Assembly (NCBI GenBank): GCA_905479735.1
Contig: CAJQNS010000014.1
Coordinates: forward strand, 1-64,000
Length of the DNA: 64,000 nt
DNA from: an uncultured Desulfofustis sp.
GTDB taxonomy: Bacteria; Desulfobacterota; Desulfobulbia; Desulfobulbales; Desulfocapsaceae
Direction of reading: 5' to 3'
Made by a program: the position numbers and the translations under genes
Part shown: piece after piece, positions 19,086-63,944 of the stretch
How positions within the stretch are numbered: the first letter of the stretch is position 1
Layout: every line of letters starts with the position of its first letter
The notes under the pieces: generated by a model
Told to the model about the DNA's origin: nothing
Databases searched by the model: none
The model's input: the letters and a program-made list of their open reading frames with translations, nothing else

Positions 19086-19480
19086 AATTTCACCTGTCTA
19101 TATTTTGATTGAAGGGGAAAATGTCTGATCAACAGATATCCAATAATCATGCCACAAAAATAAGTAAATAATTAAATAATTTATTATTCCCCGAAAAAAC
19201 CGAACCTTACATAGAAAGACTTAAACAACCACTTAATCAAGCTGGAAGATTAGATCGATTGGCAGGGGTAATGGTGGGTAATTTTTATCCAATGCAGCCT
19301 CTCGCCGGGTAAAAACTATGCTGAAAAGAACTGCCAGCAGCCCTCCAAACCACCGCTTAACATATTTTTTATGCTGTGATAACAAAAGGATAATGCACTT
19401 GATTGAATTCCGGCACAGCCATTGCTTTACTTAGGGCAAAGGCGTTTAGCCATGAATAACCCCAACAAAGGAGTCGAAAA
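19086..19480. other. Intergenic region between divergent genes
   Basis: 395 bases separating the leftward DUF4405 gene from the rightward Spy-like gene, so promoters for both should be here. A very AT-rich tract lies at about 19157-19192. A ribosome site, CAAAGGAG, lies just before the gene at 19481. No further element could be assigned. Confidence 0.4.
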
Positions 19481-37692: not shown

Positions 37693-37883
37693 AAGTCGTG
37701 AGCAACGGTTACTTTCAGGTTACCAACCCGAACCCCGAATGTTCCAACATATGAAACTTTTACTTTTCGAAATGTCTTTACCTACGACTTTCTATTTCTT
37801 GAAACTATTTTACCGAGCCAGACAACGATCAAAGCCTGAAGCAATCACCTTAACCTATGGGCATGGATATCAAGGAGAATATT

Positions 37884-38710: not shown

Positions 38711-39493
38711 ATGAGCCTTGAAATATACAACTTGAGCCATACCTTCCAGAATCACATGCCAGAGTGGCCTTCGAGCCCGGGTGTCAATGTCACCGTCAAC
38801 AAGTTCCATGCCAAGGATGGCGTCTACCAGGTCAACTGGGAAGGGATCATGCACCGCTGCACCCATATGGATGCCCCCCTCCATGTCACCGAAAACACAC
38901 CAGGTATCAGCGAGTACCCATTGTGGCGTTTGGCCGGCACCGGGGTGGCCGTGTCCATACCCAAAGAAAAATGGGGGGTCATCAGCCCTGAGGATCTGGA
39001 AAAGGCCGACCCGGCCATCCAGGAAGGCGATATCGTCATGATCAACACCGGGTTCCACCGCAAGTGGGGTGACAACACCGACTATTTTGCCTACGGCTGC
39101 GGCATCTCCGGTGCCGGAGCCCAATGGCTGGTCGATAAAAAGGTAAAATGCGTCGGCTACGGCCACCAGGCCAACGACCATCCGATCGCCACCAAGCTGG
39201 TGGACCACGGTCTCGGACCGTCCCAGCCCCACCTGATCGACGAATACAGGGAATACACCGGCAGGGACCCGGAGGAAGACTTTCCATTATGGGAAGATGC
39301 CCATAAAAACCTGATGGTCAAAGGAGGTATTCCGGGCATCGAAAATATCGGTGGAGACATAGACAAGGTAACCGGCAAACGCTGCTTCTTCATGGCCTTT
39401 CCCTGGCGCTGGGTCAAGGGCGACGGCTGCATCGTCCGGGTCCTGGCCGTTGTCGACCCGGATCAGAGTTTTCGTTTTGAAACCGGGGCTTAG
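38711..39493 (+). CDS. Cyclase-family (PF04199) metal hydrolase, second of tandem pair
   Basis: 260 residues. The metal motif is HRCTHMDAPLH at 48-58: the Asp ligand is present (D54), but the usual Gly is Cys50. GHQANDHPIATKL later supplies the second conserved histidine region. Similarity to the first cyclase is limited to the core, so the two are not a recent duplication and may act on different intermediates or form a heteromer. GAGGAG precedes the ATG. Cytoplasmic, no signal peptide. Confidence 0.86.
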   Translation: MSLEIYNLSHTFQNHMPEWPSSPGVNVTVNKFHAKDGVYQVNWEGIMHRCTHMDAPLHVTENTPGISEYPLWRLAGTGVAVSIPKEKWGVISPEDLEKADPAIQEGDIVMINTGFHRKWGDNTDYFAYGCGISGAGAQWLVDKKVKCVGYGHQANDHPIATKLVDHGLGPSQPHLIDEYREYTGRDPEEDFPLWEDAHKNLMVKGGIPGIENIGGDIDKVTGKRCFFMAFPWRWVKGDGCIVRVLAVVDPDQSFRFETGA

Positions 39494-39675: not shown

Positions 39676-42198
39676 ATGGCGAAAAGACGATTAACAAATT
39701 GTACCAACGGCGGGCCGATATCGGTGCATGTCGAAGATGATAAAGTGACCCGGATTGAACCTCTGGTTATTGACGACAAGGATTACAAGTCGTGGGTTAT
39801 TTCAACTGACGACGGAGATTATGCTCCACCCAGAAAAGTGACGGTACCACCATTTGTGTATACCGAACGAAATCGTCTGTATTCGGAAAATAGAATCAAG
39901 TATCCGATGAAACGCCTTGATTTTGATCCTCATGGTGAACGCAACCCGGAAAATCGCGGAAAATCTGGATATGAGCGGATAAGCTGGGCTGAAGCCATAG
40001 ATATCGTTGCCGGTGAAATCCAACGGATCGGGAAGGAACATGGGCCCTCCGCGGTTACCGGGATGACCTCGTCTCACCACAACTGGGGAATTGTCGGTTA
40101 CAAGATGGGGCCGTTTGCTCGCTTCATGGAGATGATTGACTATACGCCAATTCTTGACAATCCGGATAGCTGGGAGGGCTGGCACTGGGGAGCCACTCAT
40201 ACCTATGGTTTTTTCTGGCGGGTAGGTATGCCGGAACAATATGACTTGCTGGAGGATGCCCTTAAACATACTGAGATGATTGTTTTCTGGTCCAACGACC
40301 CTGACTCGACCCGGGGAATCTATACCGGGCAGGAGTCTGTCATCTGGCGCCAATGGTTGAAAGACAAGGGTATTGAGACGGTATTTATAGACCCCTTTTA
40401 CAATTACACCAATGCGGCGATGGACGGTAAGTGGATTCCGGTAAAACCGGGTACCGACACCTGTCTGGCCATGGCTATCGCCCACGTCTGGGTTGAAGAA
40501 GACACCTATGACAAAGAATATGTCGAGACCCGAACCGTCGGCTTTGAGGAGTTCAAGCCTTACCTTCTTGGGGAGACGGATGGGGTGGAGAAAACGCCCG
40601 AGTGGGCTGAACAGGAATCAGGGGTTCCCGCTCGCACCATTCGTTCTCTGGCACGGCAATGGGCCTCAAAGGTTACCGCCCTGTCGGCAGGTTCCAGGGG
40701 AGGAGAAGGCGGGGCTTGCAGGCAGGCATATTCGACCGAGTGGGCCCGCATGATGGTGCTGCTGCAGGCCATGCAAGGATTAGGAAAACCTGGGGTCAGC
40801 ATCTGGGGAACGACCATGGGCGCGCCGACAAATACTACCCTCTGGTTCCCCGGTTACGGAGACCCACAAGGACAGATGGGGCGCTCGCCGGCGGCTGACC
40901 ACCGCCCTCAGAATGCGACTAAACAGCGTTTATACCGGCCCATTGTCCCTGATGCCATTCTCAACCCGCCAATCAAATGGCGCGGAGAAGGGTTCTGCAA
41001 CAAGAGTATCGAACAGCAGTTCACCGAATTTGAATATCCCATGGAAGGGCATTCACCGGTAAAAATGTTTTACCGTTACGGCGGTTCTTTCATCGGCACG
41101 ATGCTTGATACCAGTAAATGGCTTCGCATGTATCAAAGCCCAAATCTTGAGTTTGTCGTTAACCAGGATTGCTGGTGGTCTGGGGAAACCGGTTTTGCCG
41201 ATATTATTCTGCCTGCCTGCACCAATCTGGAGCGGGAAGATGTCGGTGAATGGGGAACGCCGGGCGGGCAGACCATGCACGCCAGCAACGGAAATAATCA
41301 TCGCGTCATCGTGCGGATGAAGAAATGTATCGACCCCTTGTGGGAGTCGAAATCGGACTATCAAATATTTTCGCTGATTGCCGAACGTCTGGGTCGTGGT
41401 GAGGAATATACTGAAGGGAAGACCGAGCTGGATTGGGCCAAGCGGTTTTTTGAAATTTCTGATTTGCCCAAACATATAAGCTGGGAAGAGTTTGATGAAA
41501 AAGGATATTACGTTGTCGGTCTGGAAGATGATTTTAAGTCGACGCCGGCACTGCGCTGGTTTGCCGAGGGCCGACCATGTGACACTCCGGATGTGAGAAA
41601 TCCCAAGAGAGAGACCGAGCTTGCAGATCAGCTTGGTACCTATACAGGTAAGATCGAGTTTGCTTCGAAGAGTCTAAGAGACAACTTTCCCGATGACGAG
41701 GAAAGGCCGGTAGTTCCCCGCTATATAAGGGCCTGGGAAGGTGAGCACAGCAAAGAGGCTGAGCAATACCCTTTCTTATTGGTATCACCGCATCCGCGTT
41801 TCACTTTTCATACCCATTATGACAAGCACAGCAGCTGGCTCAATGATATTCCTCTGCACCGGGTAAAAATTAACGGTTACGCCTGGTGGCCTGTTAGAAT
41901 TCATCCTCTTGATGCAGAAAAAAGAGGTATTCAGGATGGAGATATCGTTAAGCTCTTCAATGATCGAGGAACCGTGCTGTGCGCGGCGGTTATAACCCAG
42001 CGTATTCATCCAGGCGTCATTCACAGTTATGCCTCTTCCGCCAGCTATGACCCGATAGATCCGGGCAATCCGGACTCTCCGGATCGCGGCGGATGCGTTA
42101 ACTTACTTACCTCGTCTCGTATGATGTCAAAAAACGTAGCTGGAATGGCCCCCAATTCCTGCATGATAGATATAGCAAAATGGGAAGGAGAAATTTGA
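39676..42198 (+). CDS. athL: Pyrogallol-phloroglucinol transhydroxylase-like large subunit
   Basis: 840 residues, Mo-bis-MGD enzyme without any N-terminal Fe-S cysteine motif. Compared from memory with Pelobacter acidigallici AthL, the offset is a constant 10 residues through the first half: H134 (His144), Y142 (Tyr152), D164-S165-W166 (Asp174, Mo-ligand Ser175, Trp176) and Y394 (Tyr404) are all kept. Differences are K143 for Arg153, E344 for Trp354, and a TPGGQ segment (528-532) where AthL has Cys557/Tyr560. So the catalytic machinery is present but the substrate pocket is altered. The closest of the three large subunits here to a true transhydroxylase. Its stop overlaps the small-subunit start (ATGA). 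Confidence 0.88.
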   Translation: MAKRRLTNCTNGGPISVHVEDDKVTRIEPLVIDDKDYKSWVISTDDGDYAPPRKVTVPPFVYTERNRLYSENRIKYPMKRLDFDPHGERNPENRGKSGYERISWAEAIDIVAGEIQRIGKEHGPSAVTGMTSSHHNWGIVGYKMGPFARFMEMIDYTPILDNPDSWEGWHWGATHTYGFFWRVGMPEQYDLLEDALKHTEMIVFWSNDPDSTRGIYTGQESVIWRQWLKDKGIETVFIDPFYNYTNAAMDGKWIPVKPGTDTCLAMAIAHVWVEEDTYDKEYVETRTVGFEEFKPYLLGETDGVEKTPEWAEQESGVPARTIRSLARQWASKVTALSAGSRGGEGGACRQAYSTEWARMMVLLQAMQGLGKPGVSIWGTTMGAPTNTTLWFPGYGDPQGQMGRSPAADHRPQNATKQRLYRPIVPDAILNPPIKWRGEGFCNKSIEQQFTEFEYPMEGHSPVKMFYRYGGSFIGTMLDTSKWLRMYQSPNLEFVVNQDCWWSGETGFADIILPACTNLEREDVGEWGTPGGQTMHASNGNNHRVIVRMKKCIDPLWESKSDYQIFSLIAERLGRGEEYTEGKTELDWAKRFFEISDLPKHISWEEFDEKGYYVVGLEDDFKSTPALRWFAEGRPCDTPDVRNPKRETELADQLGTYTGKIEFASKSLRDNFPDDEERPVVPRYIRAWEGEHSKEAEQYPFLLVSPHPRFTFHTHYDKHSSWLNDIPLHRVKINGYAWWPVRIHPLDAEKRGIQDGDIVKLFNDRGTVLCAAVITQRIHPGVIHSYASSASYDPIDPGNPDSPDRGGCVNLLTSSRMMSKNVAGMAPNSCMIDIAKWEGEI

Positions 42199-49309: not shown

Positions 49310-50077
49310 CTAGGCTGCGGTCAATCCCCCATCGACATAGATGGTCTGACCGGAGACAAAGCTGGCGGCATCTGAACACAGAAAAACCACGGCCCCGACC
49401 ATGTCCTCGGGCATTCCTATCCTGCCCATCGGCACCGCAGCGGCATATTTGGCGGCAAGTTGCGGATCTTCGGCTATGTGTTTGGTTCCCGGAGTAATTA
49501 CCAGGGCCGGGCCCAGAGCGTTGACCCTGATGCCGCTGGGCGCCCATTCCAGAGCCAGCGCTTTGGTGATCAATTCAACCGCACCCTTGGTGGCACAATA
49601 ACCGGCATTACCACCGGTATAGCCTCGAATACCGCGAACCGACGAGAGGTTGACGATGGCTCCCTGATGCTGGTCGCGCATAACCCTGCCCACCACTTTG
49701 CAGGCCGCCATGGTACCCTTGACGTTCACCTCGAACAGTTTATCCCAGTCCTCCAGCGGATAGTCAAAGGCGTCCCGCTTTATATTCATGCCCATGGCGT
49801 TGACCAGGATATCTATTTTACCGTATTTCTCGACCACCGCATCGACCAGGCTCTGAATACTGCTCTCATCGGTAACATCGGCGGCAAGCGCAAGCGCCTC
49901 GCTGCCGGTTTTCGTGGAAATTTTCTCGGCAACTGCATCGATGGTCTGCTGATTTCGGCTCGATACCACCACCGTCGCCCCCTGATAGCCCAAGCCCAGG
50001 GCAAGCGCTTCACCGATGCCGCCGGCTCCGCCGGTAACCACTGCGACTTTGCCATCCAATCTGAACATATCTTTCAT
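49310..50077 (-). CDS. Short-chain dehydrogenase/reductase
   Basis: 255 residues from the ATG at 50077 (GAGGGTGAC site). The cofactor motif TGGAGGIG is at about 16-23. The catalytic Ser lies in NLSSVRGI, and Tyr/Lys lie in YCATK, with VNALGPALVITPGT after it. Most like gluconate 5-dehydrogenase-type SDRs; the residue after strand 2 (SSRN) suggests NADP(H). Phloroglucinol reductase is also an SDR, so ring reduction is a candidate role in this context, without direct proof. Confidence 0.88.
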   Translation of the reverse strand: MKDMFRLDGKVAVVTGGAGGIGEALALGLGYQGATVVVSSRNQQTIDAVAEKISTKTGSEALALAADVTDESSIQSLVDAVVEKYGKIDILVNAMGMNIKRDAFDYPLEDWDKLFEVNVKGTMAACKVVGRVMRDQHQGAIVNLSSVRGIRGYTGGNAGYCATKGAVELITKALALEWAPSGIRVNALGPALVITPGTKHIAEDPQLAAKYAAAVPMGRIGMPEDMVGAVVFLCSDAASFVSGQTIYVDGGLTAA

Positions 50078-50123
50078 GTCACCCTCTCTAGTATGCGTTT
50101 TCACATGTCATCGATAAGAAAAA

Positions 50124-50897: not shown

Positions 50898-50918
50898 TTG
50901 TTCCACCATGCGGAACAA
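50898..50918. promoter_or_regulatory. Palindromic IclR-type operator
   Basis: Perfect inverted repeat TTGTTCC-N7-GGAACAA, 25 bp upstream of the IclR start codon. Arms and spacing fit the binding sites of IclR-family regulators, which often have GTTCC/GGAAC half-sites. An autoregulatory role is likely. A TTG within it opens the same frame as the regulator but is not a credible start. Confidence 0.65.
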
Positions 50919-50942
50919 ACAACCATCCAAGAGCAAATACTC

Positions 50943-51752
50943 ATGTTAAACGGACCAGAAAAAAACCAGACGGACAAATTTAATGGCAGGCAGAATGGAA
51001 CCAATGAGTCTTCAGCCGAGAAGGCCTTGAATATATTGCTCGCTTTTTCCTCTTCTACTAAAGAGATGGGAACCACAGAGCTCAGCCAGAAGCTCGGTAT
51101 GCACAAGTCGACCACCAGCCGGCTGATAAAAACTCTGGTAGCCGCCAACTTTCTGCAGCAGAATCCGGCCACCAGAAAATATTTGCTGGGAATGTCGGCT
51201 TACCAGATAGGTTATGCGGCAAACAGATCTCTTGATTCCCGTCTGCTGTCAATCGCCCAGCCCCATCTTTATGAACTTGCTCAGCAGACCGGCGAAAGCG
51301 TGGCTCTTGAACTTTTATCAGGTACGAATGTGATTCTGGCAAGCCATGTCGAAGGCCCCAGCCACCTCAGGTTCAACTTTCAACAGGGAGAGATTGTACC
51401 GATCAACGTAGCCGCCGGGGCAAAAGCAATTTTAGCCCACAGCGATCCTGATTTTCTCGAGTCATGCCTGCAGCGTGAATTCGAGAAATTCAATGAACGG
51501 ACCATTGTCTCCAAAAAGAAGTATCGTGCCCTGTTGAAACAGGTGAGAAAGGACGGCATCTCTTATGACCGGGGTGAGCGTTATGTTGACATTCACGCCA
51601 TGGCGGTGCCCATTCATTATGGCGGCATAATCCCCAAAGCTGCAGTAATCATTGCCGGACCTGCCTCCAGGCTGACCGACTCATTTCTGAAATCAGCCGA
51701 CCAACCTCTGAGGGAGACCGCCAGCAAAATCTCTGAACTGCTCCATTCCTGA
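50943..51752 (+). CDS. IclR-family transcriptional regulator
   Basis: 269 residues from the ATG at 50943. The winged helix-turn-helix is at about residues 25-80 (TTELSQKLGMHKSTTSRLIKTLV), and the C-terminal effector domain shows ESVALELLSG and YDRGERYVDIHAMAVPI, as in regulators of aromatic and sugar-acid catabolism. Divergent from the seven-gene catabolic operon and upstream of the third Mo-enzyme operon, so both are plausible targets. Confidence 0.88.
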   Translation: MLNGPEKNQTDKFNGRQNGTNESSAEKALNILLAFSSSTKEMGTTELSQKLGMHKSTTSRLIKTLVAANFLQQNPATRKYLLGMSAYQIGYAANRSLDSRLLSIAQPHLYELAQQTGESVALELLSGTNVILASHVEGPSHLRFNFQQGEIVPINVAAGAKAILAHSDPDFLESCLQREFEKFNERTIVSKKKYRALLKQVRKDGISYDRGERYVDIHAMAVPIHYGGIIPKAAVIIAGPASRLTDSFLKSADQPLRETASKISELLHS

Positions 51753-52034
51753 GCACAGCTGCACGTTTCGTCTTCAGCGCCGGTAAGCGCCCTCCTAAAG
51801 TCTCCGATATATCGGGCGGTACTCCATTATTTTGGATTACAAAGGGAGGTTCTGAGCCTCCTCCGCCTCCTCCCATGACCCTCCTGCTGTTCAATATTCG
51901 CTGCAGTAAGGCTCTCCGCTTCGGTCAATGCAACAAAACTGCGGATGGCATGCTTATTGAAACACCAATTGTCAGCAGACGCGATCGTCGCCACTGCACT
52001 CCTGTTGCAGGGTCAATCAAAACAGAGGCACACA
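51753..52034. other. Intergenic region before the third Mo-enzyme operon
   Basis: Contains a perfect 12-bp palindrome CCGATATATCGG (51804-51815) and a sequence TGGCATGCTTATTGAA (51946-51961) that resembles a sigma-54 box but has GA instead of the near-invariant GC at -12. A frame extension of the following gene across this stretch was rejected in favour of the ATG at 52035. Confidence 0.35.
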
Positions 52035-54641
52035 ATGGCAGATCTGAAGCTCAAAGATAAAACGGTTTTAAGAAGCCTTGGGCTGGGCGGTTTTTTTGGA
52101 GGCGGGGCCGAAGGCATGGTGGATGTAAAAGACGGCAGGATCGTCCGCATACGGCCCATGCGTTATGGCTGGAAATATGAAAAGAAAGAGGTCCGGCAAT
52201 GGCGGATGTCCAAAAACGGTAAATCGATTGAGCCGACCTGGAAATCACTGCCAGGACCCTTCTCGCTCGCTTACAAAAAGCGGGTTTACTCCGCCAACCG
52301 AATCGCTTACCCGCTTAAACGAGTCGACTGGGATCCGGAAGGAGAGCGAAACACACAGAACCGGGGACGAAGTAAATATGTGCGTATTTCATGGGATGAA
52401 GCCAGTTCAATCATAGCCGCTGAGATTGAACGGATCCACCAGACCTATGGAGTACACGCAATTTTGATGCAGGGGGACGGACACGGCGAGTGTAAATCAA
52501 TAAACACGCCCCATGGGCATCCCGGAAACCTTCTTGACCACATGGGTGGATTCACCCTCCAGGTGCGCAACCCGGATAGCTGGGAAGGCTGGTACTGGGG
52601 TGCAAAACACGTGTGGGGGCAAGGCGTTCAGGGCAACATGTGGCCGGCGGCGAATACGGTAAACGATGCCACCGAAAACACGGAAATGATGCTGTTCTGG
52701 GGCTGTGATCCGGAAACCACCCCCTGGGGATTTACCGGTCAATTCGCCAGCAGATTGTGTTATTTCTGGTCTGAGATCGGCATGAAACAGATCTATATCT
52801 GTCCGGATCTGAATTATGGGGCAGCAATCCACGCTGACAAGTGGATCCCGATCCTGCCCAATACCGACGCCGCCCTGCAGCTCGCCATAATCCATGTCTG
52901 GCTCAAGGAAGATCTCTACGACAAAGAATATCTTCGCACCCATGCAACCGGTACCGATGAATTCTTTTCCTACGTTTTGGGTGAAGACGATTCGATTCCT
53001 AAATCCCCTGCCTGGGCAACCAAAAAGTGTGGGATTTCGGAGTGGACGATCAAAGCCCTTGCCCGCGAGTTTGCCGCTAAGACTACCTCCATTGCCCACT
53101 ACTTTGGCGGCGGTCTTATCCGCGGCCCCTACTCCCATGAGAATGCCAGGCTGGAAGTTATACTGCTGGCCATGCAGGGCCTCGGCGGTCCAGGTGTCCA
53201 TCAACTGCAGCTGACCTACTTCGGCATGCCGAGAAAAGAACGCCTCGCCGGCGGTGTCTGGAACCCGGATCTCGAAGAGCGCCTTTCCATACCGGTCATG
53301 TCTTCAATTACTGCCTGGCAGAAACAGGCCCTGCCCAAATGTCTGGTGCACAAGGCGATTGAATCGGATGAACCCATCACCTTCAGGGGGACAGGAGCCA
53401 TCGAGGGGCTGGTCCATGACCAGTTCAGTGAGTACACCTTTCCCATTCCAGAAGAGGAGGGGGGCAGCCAGATCCACATGATCTGGACCGACACCCCGTG
53501 CCGCATCACCTGCTGGAACGGTGGTAATGAAACAGAGGTGGCCCTGCAGAACCCCAAAATCGAGACCATCGTGGCCCAGCACCCCTGGCTGGAGAACGAC
53601 TGTCTGTATGCCGATATTATTCTGCCGGCAAACACCTTGATGGAAGTTGACGATATAGTCACGAATGTGCGACAGGGAACTCCACAACCAAACATCATGT
53701 TGCAGGACAAGGCCATCGAGCCCATCGGTGAATCAAAGAGCGACTTTGAAATTGTTGCCGAGGTCGCAGAAAGATTCGGGTTGAAGGAAAAACTCACCCA
53801 GGGCCTGTCAATCAAACAGTTGCAGGAACGAATCTGGCATCACATGGGCGGCGACGAGCTGGTCAGTTGGCAGGAACTGCAGGAAAAGAAGTATTGGATG
53901 TACAACACCGCCGAAGACTGGAAAGACGACCCTCCTGGATTCAGGCAGTTCTATGAGGACCCGGAAAATCATCCGCTGGGAACCAAGAGCGGCAAGCTGG
54001 AATTCTACTCAGAGGCTCTCGCTGTGCGCTTTCCAGACGACAAGGAACGTCCACCCATTCCAAAGTGGATTGAGAGAAGCGGCATGCATGACGAGCGCTT
54101 GTCCAGCAGCCGGTCCAAATCCTATCCCTTACTGCTCATGTCCAATCACGGCCGCTGGCGGGTACATTCGCAATGCGATGACATCACCTGGACCAGAGAG
54201 GTTGCGACCTGCAAAATCACCGGCAAAGACGGGTATAAATATGAGCCGGTCTGGATGCATCCGTCCGAAGCCGAGAAGAGAAGCATCTGCCATGGAGATA
54301 TCGTCAAGATTTTCAACGACCGCGGCATTGTGCTGGCCGGCGCCTACATCACAGAACGTCTCAGACCCGGCGTGGTCTATATAGATCACGGGGCTCGGGC
54401 CGATGCCATCAAGATCGGTAAAATTGATCGAGGCGGGGCCATTAACACCATTTCCCCCGACGGCATCATCTCGGAAAACTGTGTTGGCCAGGCCACCAGC
54501 GGATACCTGGTACAGATCGAGCGGCTGTCCGGAGAAGAAATGGAGGGCTGGAGACGAAAATATCCCGAGGCCTTTGCGAGAAAATACGAACCGGCCGGCG
54601 GGTTGCGTTTTGATGCCTGGGTTATCAAGAAGGAGTCCTGA
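52035..54641 (+). CDS. Molybdopterin enzyme large subunit, transhydroxylase (AthL) family, paralogue 3
   Basis: 868 residues from the ATG at 52035 (AGAGG site). It matches the 31358-33973 product along its whole length, including the opening LKDKTVLRSLGLGG, the PMRYGWKY segment, H150 in GDGHGECK and D181-S182-W183 in NPDSWEGWYWG. No Fe-S motif at the N-terminus and no Tat signal. It is cytoplasmic and expected to bind Mo-bis-MGD through Ser182. Divergence is spread evenly, so the duplication is old and both copies look functional. Its small subunit starts 2 bp after the stop, followed by a kinase-like gene that paralogue 1 lacks. Confidence 0.88.
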   Translation: MADLKLKDKTVLRSLGLGGFFGGGAEGMVDVKDGRIVRIRPMRYGWKYEKKEVRQWRMSKNGKSIEPTWKSLPGPFSLAYKKRVYSANRIAYPLKRVDWDPEGERNTQNRGRSKYVRISWDEASSIIAAEIERIHQTYGVHAILMQGDGHGECKSINTPHGHPGNLLDHMGGFTLQVRNPDSWEGWYWGAKHVWGQGVQGNMWPAANTVNDATENTEMMLFWGCDPETTPWGFTGQFASRLCYFWSEIGMKQIYICPDLNYGAAIHADKWIPILPNTDAALQLAIIHVWLKEDLYDKEYLRTHATGTDEFFSYVLGEDDSIPKSPAWATKKCGISEWTIKALAREFAAKTTSIAHYFGGGLIRGPYSHENARLEVILLAMQGLGGPGVHQLQLTYFGMPRKERLAGGVWNPDLEERLSIPVMSSITAWQKQALPKCLVHKAIESDEPITFRGTGAIEGLVHDQFSEYTFPIPEEEGGSQIHMIWTDTPCRITCWNGGNETEVALQNPKIETIVAQHPWLENDCLYADIILPANTLMEVDDIVTNVRQGTPQPNIMLQDKAIEPIGESKSDFEIVAEVAERFGLKEKLTQGLSIKQLQERIWHHMGGDELVSWQELQEKKYWMYNTAEDWKDDPPGFRQFYEDPENHPLGTKSGKLEFYSEALAVRFPDDKERPPIPKWIERSGMHDERLSSSRSKSYPLLLMSNHGRWRVHSQCDDITWTREVATCKITGKDGYKYEPVWMHPSEAEKRSICHGDIVKIFNDRGIVLAGAYITERLRPGVVYIDHGARADAIKIGKIDRGGAINTISPDGIISENCVGQATSGYLVQIERLSGEEMEGWRRKYPEAFARKYEPAGGLRFDAWVIKKES

Positions 54642-54643
54642 TC

Positions 54644-55480
54644 ATGAAAGCTTTTTATATCGATTTATCCATCTGCAACGGTTGTTATTGTTGTCAGATA
54701 GGCTGCAAAGATGAACACGTTGCCAACGATTGGACCCCCTACGCCAAACCCCAGCCCGACACCGGACAGTTCTGGATCGGTATCAACGAATACGTCCGGG
54801 GGCAGGTCCCAAAGGTGAAGGTGACCTACGTTCCAAAACTGTGCCATCATTGTGATGATGCGCCCTGCATTGAGCAGTGTCAGTTCAAGGCGATTATCAA
54901 GCGTCAAGACGGTATCGTTCTCATCAGGCCCGAGGACTGCACGGGGTGCAGACTTTGCCAGTCAGCCTGTCCCCATGAGGCAATCTTTTTTAACGAGGAC
55001 CTGATGATTGCCCAGAAATGCACCGGCTGCTCACATCTCATTGACAATGATCCTGACTGGACCGTACCCCGCTGTGTCGATCAATGCCCCACTGAGGCCC
55101 TACAATTTGGCGACCAAGAGGATTTTCAGGAGTTTATCGCTGCAGCGCAACTGATCAATCCGGAAGCAGGTACAAAATCACGTGTGTACTACAAGAACCT
55201 GCCGAAAAAATTTATCGGCGGCACACTCTACGATCCCGATGAAAAGGAAGTCATCATTGGAGCTGAATGTGCACTGCAGGACAGAGACACGGGGGAAGTT
55301 TGTACCACTGAAACAGACAATTTCGGTGATTTCTGGTTTAATGATCTGGAGGATGACAGAACCTTCAGCCTGACTTTCAAGAAAGACACTGATTCGTTGA
55401 CTCTGGAAGAGGTCACCAGCGAACAAGATCTGTCACTGGGAGATATCCCCATGAGGCTTCAACAATCCAAAGAAGGTTAA
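54644..55480 (+). CDS. Four-cluster Fe-S small subunit with C-terminal beta domain (AthS-like), paralogue 3
   Basis: 278 residues with the same 16-cysteine pattern as paralogue 1 (CNGCYCCQIGC; CHHCDDAPCIEQC; CTGCRLCQSAC; CTGC...CVDQC), so four [4Fe-4S] clusters. The C-terminal beta domain from about residue 185 contains TETDNFGDFWFNDL. Cytoplasmic. Presumed to carry electrons to or from the Mo site of the partner. Ends 18 bp before the kinase-like gene. Confidence 0.9.
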   Translation: MKAFYIDLSICNGCYCCQIGCKDEHVANDWTPYAKPQPDTGQFWIGINEYVRGQVPKVKVTYVPKLCHHCDDAPCIEQCQFKAIIKRQDGIVLIRPEDCTGCRLCQSACPHEAIFFNEDLMIAQKCTGCSHLIDNDPDWTVPRCVDQCPTEALQFGDQEDFQEFIAAAQLINPEAGTKSRVYYKNLPKKFIGGTLYDPDEKEVIIGAECALQDRDTGEVCTTETDNFGDFWFNDLEDDRTFSLTFKKDTDSLTLEEVTSEQDLSLGDIPMRLQQSKEG

Positions 55481-55498: not shown

Positions 55499-56317
55499 AT
55501 GACTGTCATAACGATTTCAAGGACTTTATACAGCGGTGGCGAACAAATTGCCGAGGAAGTTGCCCAACGGTTGGGATATCCATGCCTGCGACGAAAAGAG
55601 CTCATTCTTGGTGCTGCAGAATATTTCCATTTCGAGGAGGCCAAACTTATTGAGGCCATGGCAGAACCTCCAAGACTCTGGCAGCAGGACAGGGATAAAA
55701 GAGATGCCCATTTCAATTTAATCCGGGCCACCTTTTTACGACGCTGCCAAGAGCAGAAAGGGTTGGTCTACCACGGTTTTTCCGGCCAGGAATTAATTAG
55801 AAATGTACCCCACGTCCTGCGTGTACTGGTATTGGCCGAGGAATCATTTCGTTTGGATACGGCAACCAGCCGCTCAGGAGCAGACCGTGACCAGGCCCTG
55901 GCCAACATCAAAGCCAGCGACAAGAAATTCAGCAAATGGACCCGCCTGATGTACGGGTTCGAGTGGAACAACCCGACGCTTTACGATCTCTGCTTCAATA
56001 TCGGTCGGGTGAGCCCCGAGAGCGCCGTTGATACCATCCTGGGAATCATAGCCAGCGGTGATTTTGTGCCGACAGAACCATCGATACAGAAGTTCAACGA
56101 CGAACTTCTTGCCAGTACCGTCTGGTCGGCGATTACCCAGAATGAAGAAACAAGCGGCGCCTATGTGGAAGCATCGGCAAAGCAGGGTCGGGTGCTCCTC
56201 ACCGGTACCGCCCGGTCCAAAAAAATCCTACAGGCGATCACCGAACTGGCTGAGACCATTGATGGTGTGGAGGAGTTGGTTAACGAGATGAATATTGGTA
56301 CAATCTGGCGCTCCTGA
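55499..56317 (+). CDS. Cytidylate-kinase-like protein with C-terminal BON-like domain
   Basis: 272 residues. The first ~190 resemble the cytidylate-kinase-like family (ITISRTLYSGGEQIAEEVAQRLG, then RKELILGAAE, and GFSGQEL), an NMP-kinase fold with an atypical P-loop. The last ~70 residues (VEASAKQGRVLLTGTARS to DGVEELVNEM) look like a BON domain. The function of this fusion is unknown; true CMP kinase activity is doubtful. It ends the third Mo-enzyme operon and may be linked to cofactor handling or phosphate sensing, which is speculation from position. Confidence 0.75.
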   Translation: MTVITISRTLYSGGEQIAEEVAQRLGYPCLRRKELILGAAEYFHFEEAKLIEAMAEPPRLWQQDRDKRDAHFNLIRATFLRRCQEQKGLVYHGFSGQELIRNVPHVLRVLVLAEESFRLDTATSRSGADRDQALANIKASDKKFSKWTRLMYGFEWNNPTLYDLCFNIGRVSPESAVDTILGIIASGDFVPTEPSIQKFNDELLASTVWSAITQNEETSGAYVEASAKQGRVLLTGTARSKKILQAITELAETIDGVEELVNEMNIGTIWRS

Positions 56318-56398: not shown

Positions 56399-57997
56399 TC
56401 AGGAAGGATGCATTCTTTGAGCTGGTCTCCTGATTCCCAGTTTGGCCATTCTTGATTCCAGCGTCGTCGGCTTCAGGCCCAGAATATCGGCCGCTCCGCG
56501 TTTGCCTCTGACTCGCCAACGGGTCGTTTCGAGGGTGCGCAGGATATAGTCCTTCTGGACCTCATCAAGCGTTCGCGCCTGGTCCGGCCTGAGCCCTCCA
56601 TCCTTTGGCAGTTCGATTTTCAGCGTCGACCCCGAAGATATAATCACCGCCCTCTCGATCACATTCTTGAGTTCACGGACATTGCCCGGCCAGTCATAGT
56701 GGCAGAGTTGGTTCATGCTGGTTCGGGAAATATTGGCAATGGATTTATCCATTTGTTCACAAAAATCTTTGACAAAATACCAGACCAGCATCGGGATATC
56801 TTGGCGCCGCTCCCGAAGCGGTGGGATAGTTATGGGGAAGACGTTGAGACGATAGTATAAATCAAGACGGAACTCGCCCTGATCGATGGCTTTTCTCAAG
56901 TCCCGGTTGGTGGCCGCAATTACCCTCACATCGGAATGAATGGTCTTGCTGCCGCCAACACGCTCAAAACTGTTCTCCTGCAGCACCCGCAAAAGCTTGA
57001 CCTGCATACCAATGGGGATTTCACCAATCTCATCGAGAAAGAGTGTAGAACCGTGGGCCAGCTCGAATCGACCGATACGCCTTGAATCAGCTCCGGTGAA
57101 TGAACCTCGCTCGTGACCGAAAAGCTCGCTTTCGATCAGATTGTCAGGTATTGCCGCACAATTGACCGTAACCTTCGGCTGGGCGCTTCGTCTGGAGAGA
57201 TTATGAATCGCCTGGGCGATGAGTTCCTTGCCTACTCCAGTTTCACCGAGAATAAGAACCGTGGTATCAAGTTTGGCAACCTGTTCGACCTGGTTAAGCA
57301 TCTGTTTGACACCATTGCTTTCTCCTATGAACTCATGATGAAGATACTGGAGGCTTATCTCCTCTCTCAGATAGGTGTTTTCCGCCTCAAGTCTCTCTTT
57401 CAGATCCTGTATTTCTGAAAACGCCTGGAGCAGTTCCTGCTCCTTGTTTTTGCGAATCAGAGCATTGGCGAAGACCGCACCAAGCATGTTGAGGCGCTGG
57501 ATCAACACTTCAGGCCACTGCCGCTCAGCGCGTAAACAGGCGAACCCGGCAACACCTAAAAACGCCCCCCCGGCGGCCAGTGGAATAAGAGCACTGGACC
57601 TGATCCCCTGCTGAATACAATGCTCTCTTTCGACAGTAGCTTCTTCGGGCAATTCAGTGATGCTGCTCATCACAACCGGTTCACACTTGAATAATCGGTG
57701 ACTGTACCAGGGCTGCTCTTCATTGAGAATCAAGTCCGGCATTGGGGTCACACCCGGGACCGCGTAGGCATGCGTCACCCGGAGCTTGTTTCGATCTTCG
57801 GAAAACTGGGCCACGCTGCATCTGTCGATATCCAGATTCTCTGCGATACGCTGCAGCACGGTCTCAATTTCCATATCGATTCTATCGGCAGGAAGATTGA
57901 CAAATTTTCCCGATATATCGGCCAGCAAAGTCTCAAATTCGAGACGTTTTTTGATGACGAGTTCCGTGGACTCGACAACCAGTTGTTCAGCAGTCAT
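56399..57997 (-). CDS. Sigma-54-dependent activator with GAF domain (FhlA/NorR type)
   Basis: 532 residues. N-terminal GAF domain (about 30-190), a coiled linker ([19 protein letters not shown]), then an AAA+ domain: Walker A GETGVGKE, the sigma-54-contacting loop [15 protein letters not shown], Walker [10 protein letters not shown] and [11 protein letters not shown] Fis-type helix-turn-helix lies at the C-terminus ([20 protein letters not shown]). The GAF domain should bind a small-molecule inducer. Divergent from a Mo-enzyme/TRAP operon that has a good sigma-54 promoter, so this is its probable activator. Confidence 0.92.
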
Positions 57998-58075
57998 TGC
58001 AATCTCCTCTCAACGCACCCCCGGTCTGATGATCCTCGCGGAGCGGGGAAAATAAGCCCTCCACAGACGAAAAAA

Positions 58076-58111
58076 CTACGATATATAGGAGCAAAATACG
58101 TAATTTCGTAG
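58076..58111. promoter_or_regulatory. Probable upstream activator site for the sigma-54 regulator
   Basis: Inverted repeat CTACGA ... TCGTAG (58076-58081 and 58106-58111), with a second overlapping TACG-TAATTT-CGTA. It lies about 95-125 bp upstream of the sigma-54 promoter, a normal distance for an enhancer-binding protein, and 80 bp from the regulator start. Confidence 0.5.
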
Positions 58112-58202
58112 ATATTGTCAATGTTTCCATTGGGGCGCTTTACAGGACCAACGAATAAGACGAGATAACAGTCAGATACAATTACTTACCGAAAGTAGTC
58201 AC

Positions 58203-58218
58203 TGGCATGAAACTTGCG
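58203..58218 (+). promoter_or_regulatory. Sigma-54 (-24/-12) promoter
   Basis: TGGCATGAAACTTGCG against consensus TGGCACG-N4-TTGC[AT]. The GG and GC doublets and their spacing are exact, with mismatches only at the sixth and last positions. It is 68 bp upstream of the start at 58286. Right after it lies ATTGTATGCAAT (58226-58237), a short inverted repeat that could bind a further regulator. Confidence 0.78.
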
Positions 58219-58285
58219 TCAAACATTGTATGCAATTATCATGAGCCATCACAGTCAATCAGTTCTCTACATAGGGGGAAAGATA

Positions 58286-60520
58286 ATGACCTATGACAAA
58301 TCAGTAGAAGTTTTTCCAACCACAGTCTGGTCGGCAGGCGCCGGCTGTCACGGTGCCTGCGGTCAAAAGCTCTATGTAAAAGATGGGAAACTGATTAAAA
58401 TTGAAGGCGACGAAAATGCCTCCTGGAACCAGGGACGATCCTGCCCGCGGGCGCTGGCTCTCACCCAGTATGTGTATCATCCCGACCGGATCACCACACC
58501 TCTGAAACGGGTCGGCAAACGCGGTGAAGGCAAGTTCGAGCCAATTTCCTGGGACCAAGCCTTCGACACCTGTGAAGAAAAACTCAAATCCATTAGAGAT
58601 GAATTCGGGGCCGAATCAGTGGTCTTCGCCCAGGGTACAGGACGGGATGTCGGCGGCCCAATTTCCTTTCTCTGCTATAACTACGGCAGCCCAAACTGGG
58701 TTCAGCTAGGACTCTCCGGCCAATCGTGCTACACACCCCGACTGGGGGGGATGAAGGCAACGCTGGGCGATTTCTGTGTGATGGATGCCGGTCAGTTTTC
58801 CGCCCTTCGCTATGATGATCCGGACTACCAGGTACCAAAAGTGATCATTGTCTGGGGCCAGAATCCTCCACCCACATGCTCGGATGGTTTCTTTGGTCAC
58901 TGGGTAGTCGACTGCATGAAGCGTGGCAGCAAAATCATTTCCATCGATCCCCGCAATACCTGGATGTCCACCCGGGCCGAATATCATCTGCAGATCAGGC
59001 CTGGGACCGATGGGGCACTGGCACTGGGCATGCTCAATGTGATCATCAACGAAGGGTTGTACGATAAAGAGTTCGTCGACAAATGGACCTACGGATTTGA
59101 TCGCCTCAAGGAGCGGGTACAGCAGTATCCGACCCATAAAGTAGCTGAGATAACCTGGATTCCTGAACATTTAATCATAGAGGCAGCCAGGTTATATGCC
59201 CGGAACAGTCCGGCCGCCATTCACTGGGGCGTCCCCATCGACATGAACCCCGAGGGAACCACCGTTGCCCAGGCAATATCTCATTTGTGGTGCATTACCG
59301 GCAACGTTGACAATCCCGGCGGCAATGTCATTGCCAGACCGTCACATGGTGTCACAACCTACCCCTACTCCACCGAAGAGCTGGTCGGTTTATACGGGCA
59401 GGATCTGGTTGATAAACTAAACAAGGCCCGTATCGGCTGCGATACCTACCCGATGGTCAAGGGTTTCCGCGGCTGGGCTCAGCCTGACATGGTGATTGAC
59501 CAGATAGATTCGGGCACCCCCTATCCCATTAAAGGCGCCTGGATTCAGACGGCTAATATCCTCGGCGGTCAAGCGGCCCGAGCCAAGTTCCATTACCAGG
59601 CTTTGAAAAAACTTGATTTTGTGGTGGTGGTGGACCTCTTTCACAATCCCACCTCCATGGCACTCGCCGATATTGTCCTGCCTGCCGCCACCTTCGCCGA
59701 AAAGGACAGTTTCCGCTCCTGGTGGGTTCCCCTGGGAGTTATGCACAAAACCATTCAGGTAGGCGACTGCAAATCGGACTGGGAAATCAACATAGAAATG
59801 GCCAATCGTCTCAACCCCGACTGCAAATATAATAACATCAAGGAACTCATCAACGACCGGCTGTCAGTCGCCGATATAACATTTGATGAGTTGGTCAACC
59901 AGGGCTCCCAGGCCATGCCCCCCGAAGGTCACAGCAGCAGACCCTATTACCGCTATGAGAAAGGGTTGTTGCGCCACGACGGAAAACCGGGCTTTACCAC
60001 CGAGACGGGCAGAATAGAACTCTATTCAAAGGCATTTGAAAGCTGGGATGTAGATCCTCTGCCGTTTTATCGGGAACCGGCCCAGGGTCCGGTAAATACT
60101 CCGGAACTTTATGAAAAATATCCGCTGATCATGATTACCGGAGCCCGATCCCACATGTTCTTCCACTCCGAGCATCGGATGATCCCCTGGCTGCGTGAGA
60201 AAAATCCCGAGCCCTATGTTGAGGTTCATCCAGACACGGCGAAAGAATACGGAGTCTATGATGGCGAGTGGATATATCTGGAAAACGACATGGGCAAGGT
60301 CAAACGAAAAGTCCGAATTTCGCTCCGCGTCCACCCGCAAATGATTCATACGCTGCACAGCTGGTGGAAACCGGAACTCAAGGGCAGTGAGCCGGATCTG
60401 TTTGGGGTCTGGGACTACCAGATCAATCAGATTATCCCCGGTCCCCAGGACAGTAGCTCGGGATTTGGCGGCGGACAGTACAAGACGACGCTCTGCAAGC
60501 TCAGCAGGATCAACGAATAG
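58286..60520 (+). CDS. Molybdopterin oxidoreductase with N-terminal Fe-S site
   Basis: 744 residues from the ATG at 58286 (AGGGGGAA site; the frame upstream crosses the promoter and was not used). DMSO-reductase superfamily of a different branch from the three AthL-like proteins. The N-terminal cluster motif reads C21-x3-C25-x27-C53; the usual first Cys is Gly18, so the site has three Cys. The Mo ligand is probably the Cys in GQSCYTPR (about residue 151). No Tat signal, so it is cytoplasmic. Transcribed with a small ferredoxin subunit and a TRAP transporter under sigma-54 control, so it probably acts on the imported compound. Confidence 0.88.
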   Translation: MTYDKSVEVFPTTVWSAGAGCHGACGQKLYVKDGKLIKIEGDENASWNQGRSCPRALALTQYVYHPDRITTPLKRVGKRGEGKFEPISWDQAFDTCEEKLKSIRDEFGAESVVFAQGTGRDVGGPISFLCYNYGSPNWVQLGLSGQSCYTPRLGGMKATLGDFCVMDAGQFSALRYDDPDYQVPKVIIVWGQNPPPTCSDGFFGHWVVDCMKRGSKIISIDPRNTWMSTRAEYHLQIRPGTDGALALGMLNVIINEGLYDKEFVDKWTYGFDRLKERVQQYPTHKVAEITWIPEHLIIEAARLYARNSPAAIHWGVPIDMNPEGTTVAQAISHLWCITGNVDNPGGNVIARPSHGVTTYPYSTEELVGLYGQDLVDKLNKARIGCDTYPMVKGFRGWAQPDMVIDQIDSGTPYPIKGAWIQTANILGGQAARAKFHYQALKKLDFVVVVDLFHNPTSMALADIVLPAATFAEKDSFRSWWVPLGVMHKTIQVGDCKSDWEINIEMANRLNPDCKYNNIKELINDRLSVADITFDELVNQGSQAMPPEGHSSRPYYRYEKGLLRHDGKPGFTTETGRIELYSKAFESWDVDPLPFYREPAQGPVNTPELYEKYPLIMITGARSHMFFHSEHRMIPWLREKNPEPYVEVHPDTAKEYGVYDGEWIYLENDMGKVKRKVRISLRVHPQMIHTLHSWWKPELKGSEPDLFGVWDYQINQIIPGPQDSSSGFGGGQYKTTLCKLSRINE

Positions 60521-60531
60521 GAGTGACCATC

Positions 60532-60864
60532 ATGGCGAAAATGGGTCTATTTATTAATTATGATTACTGCACCGGCTGCCAGAGTTGTGCCGTTGCCTGT
60601 CAGCAGGAGCATGATTTCCCGGCAGGCAAATGCGGGATCACCGTGACCGAATATGTCTACCCAGCTGAAAAGAAACCGGTTGCCGTGGATTTTCTCCCTT
60701 TTCCAAACGAGCTGTGCGATTTGTGTATTCGCCGCCATCAGATGGGAGAGGACCCAGCCTGTGTCAAACACTGCCAGGCTGCCTGTATGATGTTCGGTCC
60801 GCTGGAGCAATTGGTGAAAGAAATGGAAAAAACACCTCGATCCGCCCTTTTTTCACCGCGGTGA
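60532..60864 (+). CDS. Small two-cluster ferredoxin subunit
   Basis: 110 residues from the ATG at 60532 (AGGAG site; a GTG three codons earlier is less likely). Cysteine motifs CTGCQSCAVAC (about 13-23) and CDLC-x9-C-x3-C (about 65-81) can bind two [4Fe-4S] clusters. It is a shortened version of the DmsB/NrfC-type subunit, about half the usual length, lacking the second ferredoxin pair. Likely electron-transfer partner of the preceding Mo enzyme. No membrane anchor follows. Confidence 0.85.
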   Translation: MAKMGLFINYDYCTGCQSCAVACQQEHDFPAGKCGITVTEYVYPAEKKPVAVDFLPFPNELCDLCIRRHQMGEDPACVKHCQAACMMFGPLEQLVKEMEKTPRSALFSPR

Positions 60865-60964: not shown

Positions 60965-61999
60965 ATGCGTAAAAAAAGTATCTTTATGTCGCTGGCGCTG
61001 TTTGGTGTGATTTTGGGGTTTGCTGTCGTGGCAGCGGCCCAGCCGATCACCCTGACTTTTGCCAACCAGAATCCCGACACCAGCTGGAGTGGCATGAAAG
61101 CCATTGCTCCCTGGGCCAAACAGGTTGAAGAAGCCACCAACGGTAAAGTCAAAATCCAGATCTTCTACTCCCAGACACTCACCAAAGGCAAAGATGCCTG
61201 GGAGGCCACCAAAAATGGAATCGCCGACATCTCCTGGTGCTTCCATGGCTACTGGCCGGGATTAACGCCCCTGGCGGACGTGATCAGTTTACCGGCCCTA
61301 CCCTACACCACCGCGGAAAAAGGCAGTGAAGTACTGTGGAAACTGTACGAAAAGTATCCGGCCATCCAGGAGCAGTTTGCCGATAACAAAATTCTTCTGC
61401 TCTTCACCAGTAATCCCTACCTTCTGATCACCACCAAGAAGCAGGTGAAAACCATGGAAGACATCAAGGGGATGAAAATCAGGATGAGCGGCGGTCCGCC
61501 GACTGAAATGATGAAAGCCCTTGGTGGTACTCCGATGATGGTACCCATGCCGGACAACTACATGTCGCTGCAGAAAGGTGTTATAGATGGTATGGGGGCT
61601 CCCTGGGAAGCGATCCACGGGTTCAGGCTCTATGAAGTCGTAAACTATTATACGGAAACCCCATTCCCGGCTGTCTATTTCTCCATTGCCATGAACAAGA
61701 AAAAATGGGACAGCCTGGACAAGGAAATCCAGGATGCCATCATGAGCGTCGGTGGTCTGGAAGGTTCAAAGTTCTGGGGCCGCAATCATTTTGATACCGC
61801 CAAGGACGGCGTCATGGAAAAGGTCAAGAGCGAGGGCAAGAGTATCGACATCTACAGCTTCTCCGACGAGGAGCGCCAACGCTGGATCGATACCGCCGGC
61901 AAGCCGATCTGGGACCAATGGGTTAACAAGATGAAAGAGGCAGGCCACAGTAATGCACAGGAAATTCTCGATACTGCTATTTCCCTGAGCCAAGAATAA
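60965..61999 (+). CDS. dctP: TRAP transporter substrate-binding protein DctP
   Basis: 344 residues. Signal peptide at 1-25 (MRKKSIFMSLALFG ... VAAAQ). The DctP fold is seen in the conserved MEDIKGMKIRM and SLQKGVIDGMGAPWEA segments; the carboxylate-binding Arg of TRAP proteins is expected in KIRMSGGP, near residue 172. The ligand is therefore probably an organic anion. GGAGG precedes the ATG. First of the three TRAP genes and separated from the other two by a terminator-like hairpin. Confidence 0.92.
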   Translation: MRKKSIFMSLALFGVILGFAVVAAAQPITLTFANQNPDTSWSGMKAIAPWAKQVEEATNGKVKIQIFYSQTLTKGKDAWEATKNGIADISWCFHGYWPGLTPLADVISLPALPYTTAEKGSEVLWKLYEKYPAIQEQFADNKILLLFTSNPYLLITTKKQVKTMEDIKGMKIRMSGGPPTEMMKALGGTPMMVPMPDNYMSLQKGVIDGMGAPWEAIHGFRLYEVVNYYTETPFPAVYFSIAMNKKKWDSLDKEIQDAIMSVGGLEGSKFWGRNHFDTAKDGVMEKVKSEGKSIDIYSFSDEERQRWIDTAGKPIWDQWVNKMKEAGHSNAQEILDTAISLSQE

Positions 62000-62033: not shown

Positions 62034-62082
62034 AATCATCCCCCCTTGTTTCCTATAAAAACAAGGGGGGATGATTTTTTTT
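62034..62082 (+). terminator. Strong hairpin with T-run between dctP and dctQ
   Basis: AATCATCCCCCCTTGTTT / AACAAGGGGGGATGATT stem with a short A-rich loop, followed by TTTTTTT. It looks like a full Rho-independent terminator, presumably partly read through, giving more binding protein than membrane subunits. Confidence 0.85.
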
Positions 62083-62163: not shown

Positions 62164-62646
62164 ATGCTCGCCACAATTGCCAAAAGACTCAGTCAGCTGC
62201 TGAGCGGCATCGCCGCCATGATACTTGCGCTGATGATGTTTCTCACCGCCCTTGATGTGTGCCTGCGCTATTTTTTCAATCGGCCGCTGGCCGGCGCCTT
62301 CGAGCTTGTTGGCTACATGATGGCCATTTTAGTACCATTCAGTATCGCCTATTGTTACCAGCAACGAGGCCATATCGTGGTCGATCTTTTTCTTGAGAGT
62401 TTTCGGGCAAAAACAAGGGCAGTGATCGATATCATTACCATTTCGATCACTTTGATTTTCACCCTGATTATTGCCTGGCAGAACGCCATTCATTTCTTCG
62501 AAGTAAAACATTCCGGGCTGACTTCTGCTGTATTATCAATCCCTGAATATCCATTTATCTCCCCAACTGCGGTGGCTTTTGCGACGGCGGCTCTGATTCT
62601 CCTCGTGCGCCTGCTGGAGTCTATCGCGGAGACTTTTGGCAAATGA
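62164..62646 (+). CDS. dctQ: TRAP transporter small membrane subunit DctQ
   Basis: 160 residues, four membrane helices, with the DctQ signature in helix 2 (CLRYFFNRPLAGAFELVGYM). The start at 62164 has no good ribosome site, and the frame is consistent with the family length. Its stop overlaps the dctM start (ATGA). Confidence 0.9.
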   Translation: MLATIAKRLSQLLSGIAAMILALMMFLTALDVCLRYFFNRPLAGAFELVGYMMAILVPFSIAYCYQQRGHIVVDLFLESFRAKTRAVIDIITISITLIFTLIIAWQNAIHFFEVKHSGLTSAVLSIPEYPFISPTAVAFATAALILLVRLLESIAETFGK

Positions 62647-63944
62647 GCCCACTTCTTGTTGGTATCATAGGGATTTTTGTTCTTATCCTGCTGATTGTTT
62701 TGCGCATGCAAATCGGCATCAGCATGGCCCTGGTGGGTTTTCTGGGATTTGCCTATATCGTTGGCATCGATCCGGCCCTGGGACTGTTGAAAACCGTACC
62801 GTTCAGCACCTTGTCGAGTCAGAATCTAAGCGTCATTCCACTCTTTATCCTGATGGGTGCCTTCGCCTTTGCTGCAAACATAAGTGAAGACCTTTATCGG
62901 GCGGTGCACAAATGGCTGGGACACTTCCGTGGCGGGCTGGCAATGGCGACAGTGGCCGCCTGTGCCTGTTTTGCGGCAATAAGCGGATCGAGTCTGGCGA
63001 CCGCCGCGACGCTTGGCAAAGTGGCAATGCCGGAGATGAAAAAGTACAAGTACGATACCGCCCTGGCCACCGGTTCTATAGCTGCTGGTGGCAGTATCGG
63101 CATCCTCATCCCGCCAAGTGTTATCCTGATAATTTACGGAATCATCACCGAGCAATCCATCGGCAAGCTCTTTCTCGCCGGCTTTATTCCGGGTCTGCTC
63201 GAGGCACTCTTTTATATCATTACTATTGTCATCCTCACCCGCATCAATCCTGCTCTGGGTCCACGAGGCCCCCGGGCGACCATGGCGGAGAGGATGGGAT
63301 CTCTGTCGAGCGTCTGGGAGGTCGTTGTACTTTTTGTTGTGGTGATCGGCGGCATCTATCTCGGGGTTTTCACCCCAACCGAAGCAGCCGCTGTAGGAGC
63401 CTTTGGCACATTCTGTTTTGCCATCTTCCGTAAGAAACTGACCTGGTCTACCTTCGTATCGAGCCTGCTGCAGACCTGCCAAACAACCGGAATGCTTTTT
63501 ATGGTTGTGCTGGGGGCCATGATCCTTGGCTATTTTTTTTCGGTCAGCAGGCTGCCGTTTGAACTCGCCTCCTGGGTTGGAGAGCTCACGGTAAACCGCT
63601 ATGTGGTTCTCATCTTGGTTCTGCTTGCAGTCGGTATCCTCGGCTGCCTGATGGATTCCATGGCCATAGTGTTGCTTACGGTGCCGGTATTCTACCCCTT
63701 GATCCAGAATCTTGGGTTTGACCCGATCTGGTTCGGCATTCTCATCGTTCGGGTAACGGAGATGGGCCTAATCACCCCTCCGGTGGGGCTCAATGTCTAT
63801 ATAATTCACGGAATTACCGGCGAGCCCATGGGGACTATTTTCAAGGGAGTGGTGCCTTTCATCATTGCCGATATACTGGAAATAATGCTGCTTATTGCCA
63901 TTCCGGAAATCACCCTGTTTCTGCCGGGGCTTATGGACGGCTAG
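62643..63944 (+). CDS. dctM: TRAP transporter large permease DctM
   Basis: 433 residues with about 12 membrane helices. Typical DctM stretches are present: AAISGSSLATAATLGKVAMPEM, GGSIGILIPPSVILIIYGI and ITPPVGLNVYII. Sodium-coupled uptake together with DctP and DctQ. Ends 57 bp before the end of the window; no further gene is seen. Confidence 0.95.
   Translation: MSPLLVGIIGIFVLILLIVLRMQIGISMALVGFLGFAYIVGIDPALGLLKTVPFSTLSSQNLSVIPLFILMGAFAFAANISEDLYRAVHKWLGHFRGGLAMATVAACACFAAISGSSLATAATLGKVAMPEMKKYKYDTALATGSIAAGGSIGILIPPSVILIIYGIITEQSIGKLFLAGFIPGLLEALFYIITIVILTRINPALGPRGPRATMAERMGSLSSVWEVVVLFVVVIGGIYLGVFTPTEAAAVGAFGTFCFAIFRKKLTWSTFVSSLLQTCQTTGMLFMVVLGAMILGYFFSVSRLPFELASWVGELTVNRYVVLILVLLAVGILGCLMDSMAIVLLTVPVFYPLIQNLGFDPIWFGILIVRVTEMGLITPPVGLNVYIIHGITGEPMGTIFKGVVPFIIADILEIMLLIAIPEITLFLPGLMDG

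Follow-up and report, generated by a model that had tools for sequence, protein, structure and literature searches.

Shared enhancer-like and -24/-12 elements precede two molybdenum-enzyme operons flanking a GAF-type sigma-54 activator gene in an uncultured Desulfofustis

The window analysed here is a stretch of 64,000 nucleotides from the draft genome of an uncultured Desulfofustis sp. (contig CAJQNS010000014.1). Near its right end, the plus strand carries a gene for a molybdopterin oxidoreductase (58286-60520), assigned by domain and comparison to the catechol-dehydroxylase/acetylene-hydratase branch, followed by genes that a domain search attributed to a small 4Fe-4S protein of 113 aa (60523-60864), the TRAP solute receptor DctP (60965-61999), the small TRAP permease DctQ (62164-62646) and the large TRAP permease DctM (62643-63944). 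The start of the Mo-enzyme gene was placed at ATG 58286; the mechanical ORF opens at 58214. The first-pass annotation had predicted that transporter and enzyme are expressed as a unit. All five genes are indeed found downstream of the proposed promoter, but this wording is too simple because a terminator-like hairpin of 18 pairs followed by a T run (62034-62076, plus strand) separates dctP from dctQM. The dctP-dctQ gaps of four related loci (L040, L041, L042 and L044) form strong stems that are unlike it in sequence; a scan of this gap detected a T run behind a stem in the window and in none of the relatives.

The best solved relative of the Mo enzyme is acetylene hydratase. In acetylene hydratase the catalytic Asp adjoins the second cluster Cys, and the Mo enzyme of the window reads CHGAC, with His at that spot, in an alignment shown without the acetylene hydratase N-terminus. 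Acetylene hydratase was considered as a function for this enzyme and was not adopted. The better-matching of the Gordonibacter and Raoultibacter genes show 43-46% identity and likewise lie beside a small Fe-S gene; an N-terminal W-S-x-G-C-H motif is common to most of the 28 aligned sequences. The enzyme is short, falls in the acetylene-hydratase branch and adjoins a small 4Fe-4S gene, which are the features of the small soluble catechol dehydroxylases. In the accessible part of a published study (PMC7028382), catechol dehydroxylases are placed next to acetylene hydratase, and the Dodh-type enzymes of Gordonibacter resemble the one found here in being small, without a TAT signal and encoded beside a small 4Fe-4S gene. 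In our alignment, the catechol dehydroxylases of gut Actinobacteria have the W-S-x-G-C-H motif in common with it.

The divergent gene (56399-57997, minus strand) had been described as a sigma-54 activator with a GAF sensor, and the domain search bore this out. It encodes a one-component protein with a GAF domain (residues 44-180), an AAA+ sigma-54 interaction domain (Sigma54_activat, PF00158) and a Fis-type HTH (HTH_8, PF02954), the domain set of an enhancer-binding protein, with a GSFTGA loop at residue 298. This sequence is among the functional loop variants listed in the available portions of PMC4641369 and PMC6615313. It is the GAF domain that points to an inducer-dependent activator. FhlA- and NifA-type activators also combine GAF, AAA+ and Fis-HTH domains and act from a dyad enhancer that precedes a -24/-12 promoter. 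The activator belongs to neither group: it scored 428.3 bits with the FhlA model NF011958 (cut-off 830) and 378.2 bits with the NifA model TIGR01817 (cut-off 528.85), and it stayed below the curated cut-offs of all 25 NCBIfam models among the matches listed.

Upstream of the Mo-enzyme gene, the -24/-12 element that had been noted at 58203-58218 (plus strand), TGGCATGAAACTTGCG, is present, with exact GG and GC doublets and normal spacing. It agrees with the consensus used for scoring, TGGCACGN4TTGCW, at 10 of the 12 specified bases, and by rule transcription would start near 58229. Taken alone, this element is barely above chance: the window contains 16 matches at up to two mismatches where 10.2 are expected, a count that shuffling attained in 4 of 100 trials. 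Another look-alike (38798-38813, minus strand) falls within a gene of the opposite strand. We also observed a possible -24/-12 element, TGGCATGATTATTGGA at 19139-19154 (minus strand). It has no tandem dyad and sits some 54 bp upstream of a minus-strand gene (18213-19085), after which comes a gene for a SpoIIE/HAMP protein.

An inverted repeat CTACGA...TCGTAG had been proposed about 100 bp upstream of this element. The repeat does exist, at 58076-58111, but not as a single one: the block is better described as two 16-bp dyads (58076-58091 and 58096-58111) whose starts are separated by 20 bp, or roughly two turns of the helix, with the motif CTMCGATATATCGKAG. The dyads end 91 bp before the -24 element, so that, at the level of sequence, sites lie upstream of the promoter as for a bacterial enhancer-binding protein. 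The motif differs from TGT-N10-12-ACA, which, according to the available part of PMC6615313, resembles the sites of FhlA and NifA. The predicted enhancer also overlaps a sigma-70-like promoter of the activator gene (TTGACA-17-TATTTT by consensus match, 58093-58121, minus strand).

We aligned the region before the Mo gene in four genomes, the window and its relatives G002 (locus L040), G031 (L044) and G041 (L041). In the three relatives, the Mo gene is 89-92% identical and the divergent activator 73-81% identical, two of the three activators being cut by contig ends. Identical columns number 20 of 36 in the enhancer and 10 of 16 in the promoter. The share is lower in the spacer between them (22 of 91), past the promoter (9 of 53) and ahead of the enhancer (3 of 76). 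The most conserved 36-column window within 58000-58271 begins exactly at 58076; among 16-column windows, the six best that were listed (10/16 each) begin at 58200-58203 and 58075-58076. Enhancer and promoter are thus better conserved than any other block of this intergenic region, which has otherwise diverged. In L044 both dyad arms are altered in concert (CTCCGA...TCGGAG), so that the symmetry is kept. The promoter is conserved at the orthologous position: TGGCAY at -24 and TTG at -12 are found in all four genomes and TTGC in two of them, the -12 halves reading TTGCG, TTGCG, TTGTA and TTGAA. The three relatives retain the sigma-70-like hexamers of the activator promoter only in part. Both sites stand above chance because they are conserved in this alignment. 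A single-dyad pattern gave 3 matches against 1.86 expected; only conservation, tandem layout and enhancer-promoter pairing decide the matter against chance.

To the left of the activator gene, the window contains another molybdenum-enzyme operon on the plus strand. It comprises a gene (52035-54641) whose product resembles AhtL, the pyrogallol hydroxytransferase large subunit, and a gene for its 4Fe-4S subunit (54644-55480, domain search); a gene for a cytidylate-kinase-like/BON protein (55499-56317, domain search) lies between this operon and the activator gene. The start of the AhtL-like gene is ATG 52035 by orthologue comparison, and not the mechanical 51945. Its product matches the AhtL-like first domain PF21423 at 28.4 bits (cut-off 27), and its best solved relative, though divergent, is pyrogallol-phloroglucinol hydroxytransferase (PDB 4v4c, 1.3e-110); both findings identify it as AhtL-like. 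Before this operon we found a second predicted enhancer of the same 16-4-16 layout (51802-51817 and 51822-51837), 108 bp before a second -24/-12-like element, TGGCATGCTTATTGAA (51946-51961, plus strand). The latter has GG and TTG, but A replaces the -12 C.

The second enhancer was held out when a symmetric dyad matrix was built from the Mo-side enhancers of the four genomes. Over the window, this matrix gave 42.9 at 58076, one of its own training sites, 23.6 at the held-out 51802 and 3.9 at the next sites; for this matrix and for the wider one used below, the training sites comprise some from the window. Shuffle maxima were 13.7 (100 dinucleotide shuffles) and 17.2 (500 mononucleotide shuffles). 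Another shuffle control peaked at 32.3 and was not reproduced, the same matrix then giving 14.4 (100 dinucleotide) and 17.1 (500 mononucleotide). A loose tandem-dyad pattern, run over all 3.99 Mb of the draft genome with at most three mismatches allowed, matched nowhere but at the two enhancers, and its reversed control gave no match; the pattern was made after both sites were known, and the two matches therefore show uniqueness and not discovery.

Both AhtL-operon orthologues examined, in G002 (89%) and G031 (88-90%), have the same 16-4-16 layout and TGGCATGGTTATTGWA, and the promoter-like element is kept as TGGCATGGTTATTGTA or TGGCATGGTTATTGAA, 98-99 bp from the enhancer. The G031 orthologue (G031:C164:41555-44150, L158) is read in two frames near residue 362, owing to a sequencing error or a real lesion. 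The AhtL-like gene 31358-33973 and its copies in relatives (14 loci, L172-L185) were also considered as members of the regulon and were rejected, no tandem dyad scoring above 13 there.

Enhancer-promoter pairing was surveyed in 1.46 Mb of loci, which include partly overlapping copies and yielded 11 distinct tandem dyads above the listing threshold. The top ten of these 11 have a -24/-12 match (9-11 of 12 bases) 91-108 bp beyond the enhancer, and the eleventh has none; the background of matches with at least 9 of 12 bases is 0.038 per 100 bp on one strand. The ten paired places include copies related by descent and are not ten independent events. Five of them are Mo-gene regions, three are AhtL regions, and the other two adjoin activator homologues of 60% identity. 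These last two belong to Desulfobacula (L161) and to a SAR324 genome (L162), and their target is not AhtL: the divergent gene is DctP in L162, and in L161 it is a gene row containing a DctP. In eight of the ten paired promoters the -12 C is replaced (GA, GT or GG), the -24 GG and the -12 TTG being retained.

We also looked upstream of 93 Mo-gene starts, each with at least 300 bp of upstream sequence (the window and four more starts lying too close to a contig end were excluded). Four of the starts, in L044, L040, L041 and L042, have a tandem dyad with a score over 11, and all four genomes carry a relative of the activator (60-81% identity). Conservation in four genomes and pairing in ten places support the earlier proposal that links the GAF-AAA+ activator, through enhancer and promoter, to the Mo-enzyme operon. 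Two results speak against it: the loss of the -12 C in most of the paired promoters, and L045, a locus of a SAR324 genome, where no -24/-12 match was found near tandem dyads scoring 23.4 and 17.4 with a wider matrix. The two tandem dyads of this genome (L045 5200-5600; L163 3141 and 3442) have a 58% activator on one side and a 78% Mo gene on the other, and the element TTGGCACG of L045/L163 is far downstream of the dyads, at the wrong spacing.

The same switch site stands before the second Mo operon; therefore one regulator probably runs two enzymes acting on aromatic compounds. We consider a two-operon sigma-54 regulon under the 56399-57997 activator very probable as the explanation of the whole. 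Most likely, this regulator would turn on both the AhtL-like enzyme and the catechol-dehydroxylase-like enzyme with its TRAP transporter. Enhancer-binding proteins of this family form rings, loop to the closed sigma-54 complex and open it by ATP hydrolysis. In the proposed mechanism, an inducer, presumably an aromatic ligand, would bind the GAF domain, and activator dimers would sit on the two dyads at 58076-58111, on one face of the DNA. Looping would then drive RNA polymerase-sigma-54 at 58203-58218 into the genes of the Mo enzyme, its Fe-S partner and the TRAP receptor, and the hairpin past dctP may let only part of the transcript pass into dctQM. The same activator on 51802-51837 would fire 51946-51961 and thereby the AhtL-like operon. 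By occupying the enhancer, it could in addition repress its own sigma-70-like promoter; the overlap makes such negative autoregulation possible.

Could the divergent Mo-enzyme/TRAP operon be the sole target of the activator, with the second site belonging to another regulator? An IclR-type gene (50898-51752) directly precedes the second enhancer and would be a candidate. We regard this as unlikely, since both enhancers are built alike from a common dyad motif and the draft genome has no third one. In G031, where the AhtL operon has moved closely behind dctM with no IclR-type gene before it, the site is still there, which argues against the IclR-type regulator. The presence of this enhancer type beside the activator homologues of L161 and L162, where AhtL is not the target, speaks against a separate regulator as well. 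It is far less probable still that the 36-bp block is mainly the operator/promoter of the activator gene and the -24/-12 look-alike incidental. The minus-strand sigma-70-like promoter that overlaps the block would fit mere autoregulation, but the -24/-12 block is conserved independently, and the enhancer also occurs with no divergent activator gene, before AhtL and in L042.

Just as improbable, in our view, is that the sites have decayed in a lineage that lost rpoN, leaving the operon silent or under another promoter. This idea comes from the draft itself, where neither the RpoN DNA-binding domain nor the RpoN protein of the same genus found an rpoN gene; the same-genus draft G002 likewise gave none. 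The negative result for the draft also weighs against the sigma-54 regulon that we favour. The gene was found in 54 of the 58 genomes searched, the Desulfofustis draft being among the four without it, and in three of the four other genomes of the genus. Against decay, the draft is 90.65% complete and split into 260 contigs, it has 24 Sigma54_activat matches, and the -24 element, the enhancer and the reading frames are intact. The simplest reading, which falls short of proof, is that the missing rpoN reflects a gap in the draft.

The surroundings look like a polyhydroxybenzene degradation island. Three AhtL-like genes lie within about 23 kb (31358-33973, 39676-42198 and 52035-54641), and the window also has two genes of the 'cyclase' family (37857-38690 and 38711-39493) and an SDR-like frame (49310-50104). 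In a published phloroglucinol cluster, a cyclase-family enzyme is found near phloroglucinol reductase, according to the accessible text of PMC10470551. A polyhydroxybenzene pathway is likely because of the relatives of the enzymes and because AhtL-like, SDR-like and cyclase genes occur together in the window. Past the window, the contig continues (L156, G000:C14:63900-81415) with genes for a GntR regulator, a second TRAP transporter, an FAA hydrolase, a LigB-type ring-cleavage protein and MoeA. Catechol-dehydroxylase-like and AhtL-like genes also stand side by side in contigs of a Betaproteobacterium and of Bacillota (L047, L048).

The mechanism and its parts are of known kinds; what is new is a regulon and not a type of system. 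The sigma-54 regulons of Desulfovibrio vulgaris, as described in the available part of PMC4641369, similarly have one-component activators beside their targets, conserved -24/-12 elements, GSFTGA, an AT-rich palindromic site and, in one operon, genes for C4-dicarboxylate transport; that part mentions no Mo-enzyme targets. The consensus given there is tGGcacg/tTGCt, whereas in the promoters described here the -12 C is mostly replaced. Among the dehydroxylases of gut Actinobacteria, those of Eggerthella are under 12-TM LuxR regulators in the portion of PMC9734109 that is available, whereas a sigma-54 activator is predicted here. Sigma-54 control of the dehydroxylase branch was not found in the literature searched, in which subscription papers are thinly covered. 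A more specific proposal, which we put forward tentatively and lean somewhat against, is that the GAF-type sigma-54 activator recognises a polyhydroxybenzene and uses twin 16-4-16 enhancers to induce two enzymes, a hydroxytransferase and a reductive dehydroxylase, the latter together with its own uptake system. This would be a dedicated trihydroxybenzene regulon in bacteria of the Desulfobulbaceae type, with related forms in Desulfobacula and SAR324 drafts and with promoters largely devoid of the -12 C.

The analysis turns a guess about one site into a testable, predicted two-operon regulon with a defined binding motif. Such a regulon would tie the catechol-dehydroxylase-like enzyme to the AhtL-like enzyme, and the dyad motif can be used to find more targets and, via the inducer, the substrate.
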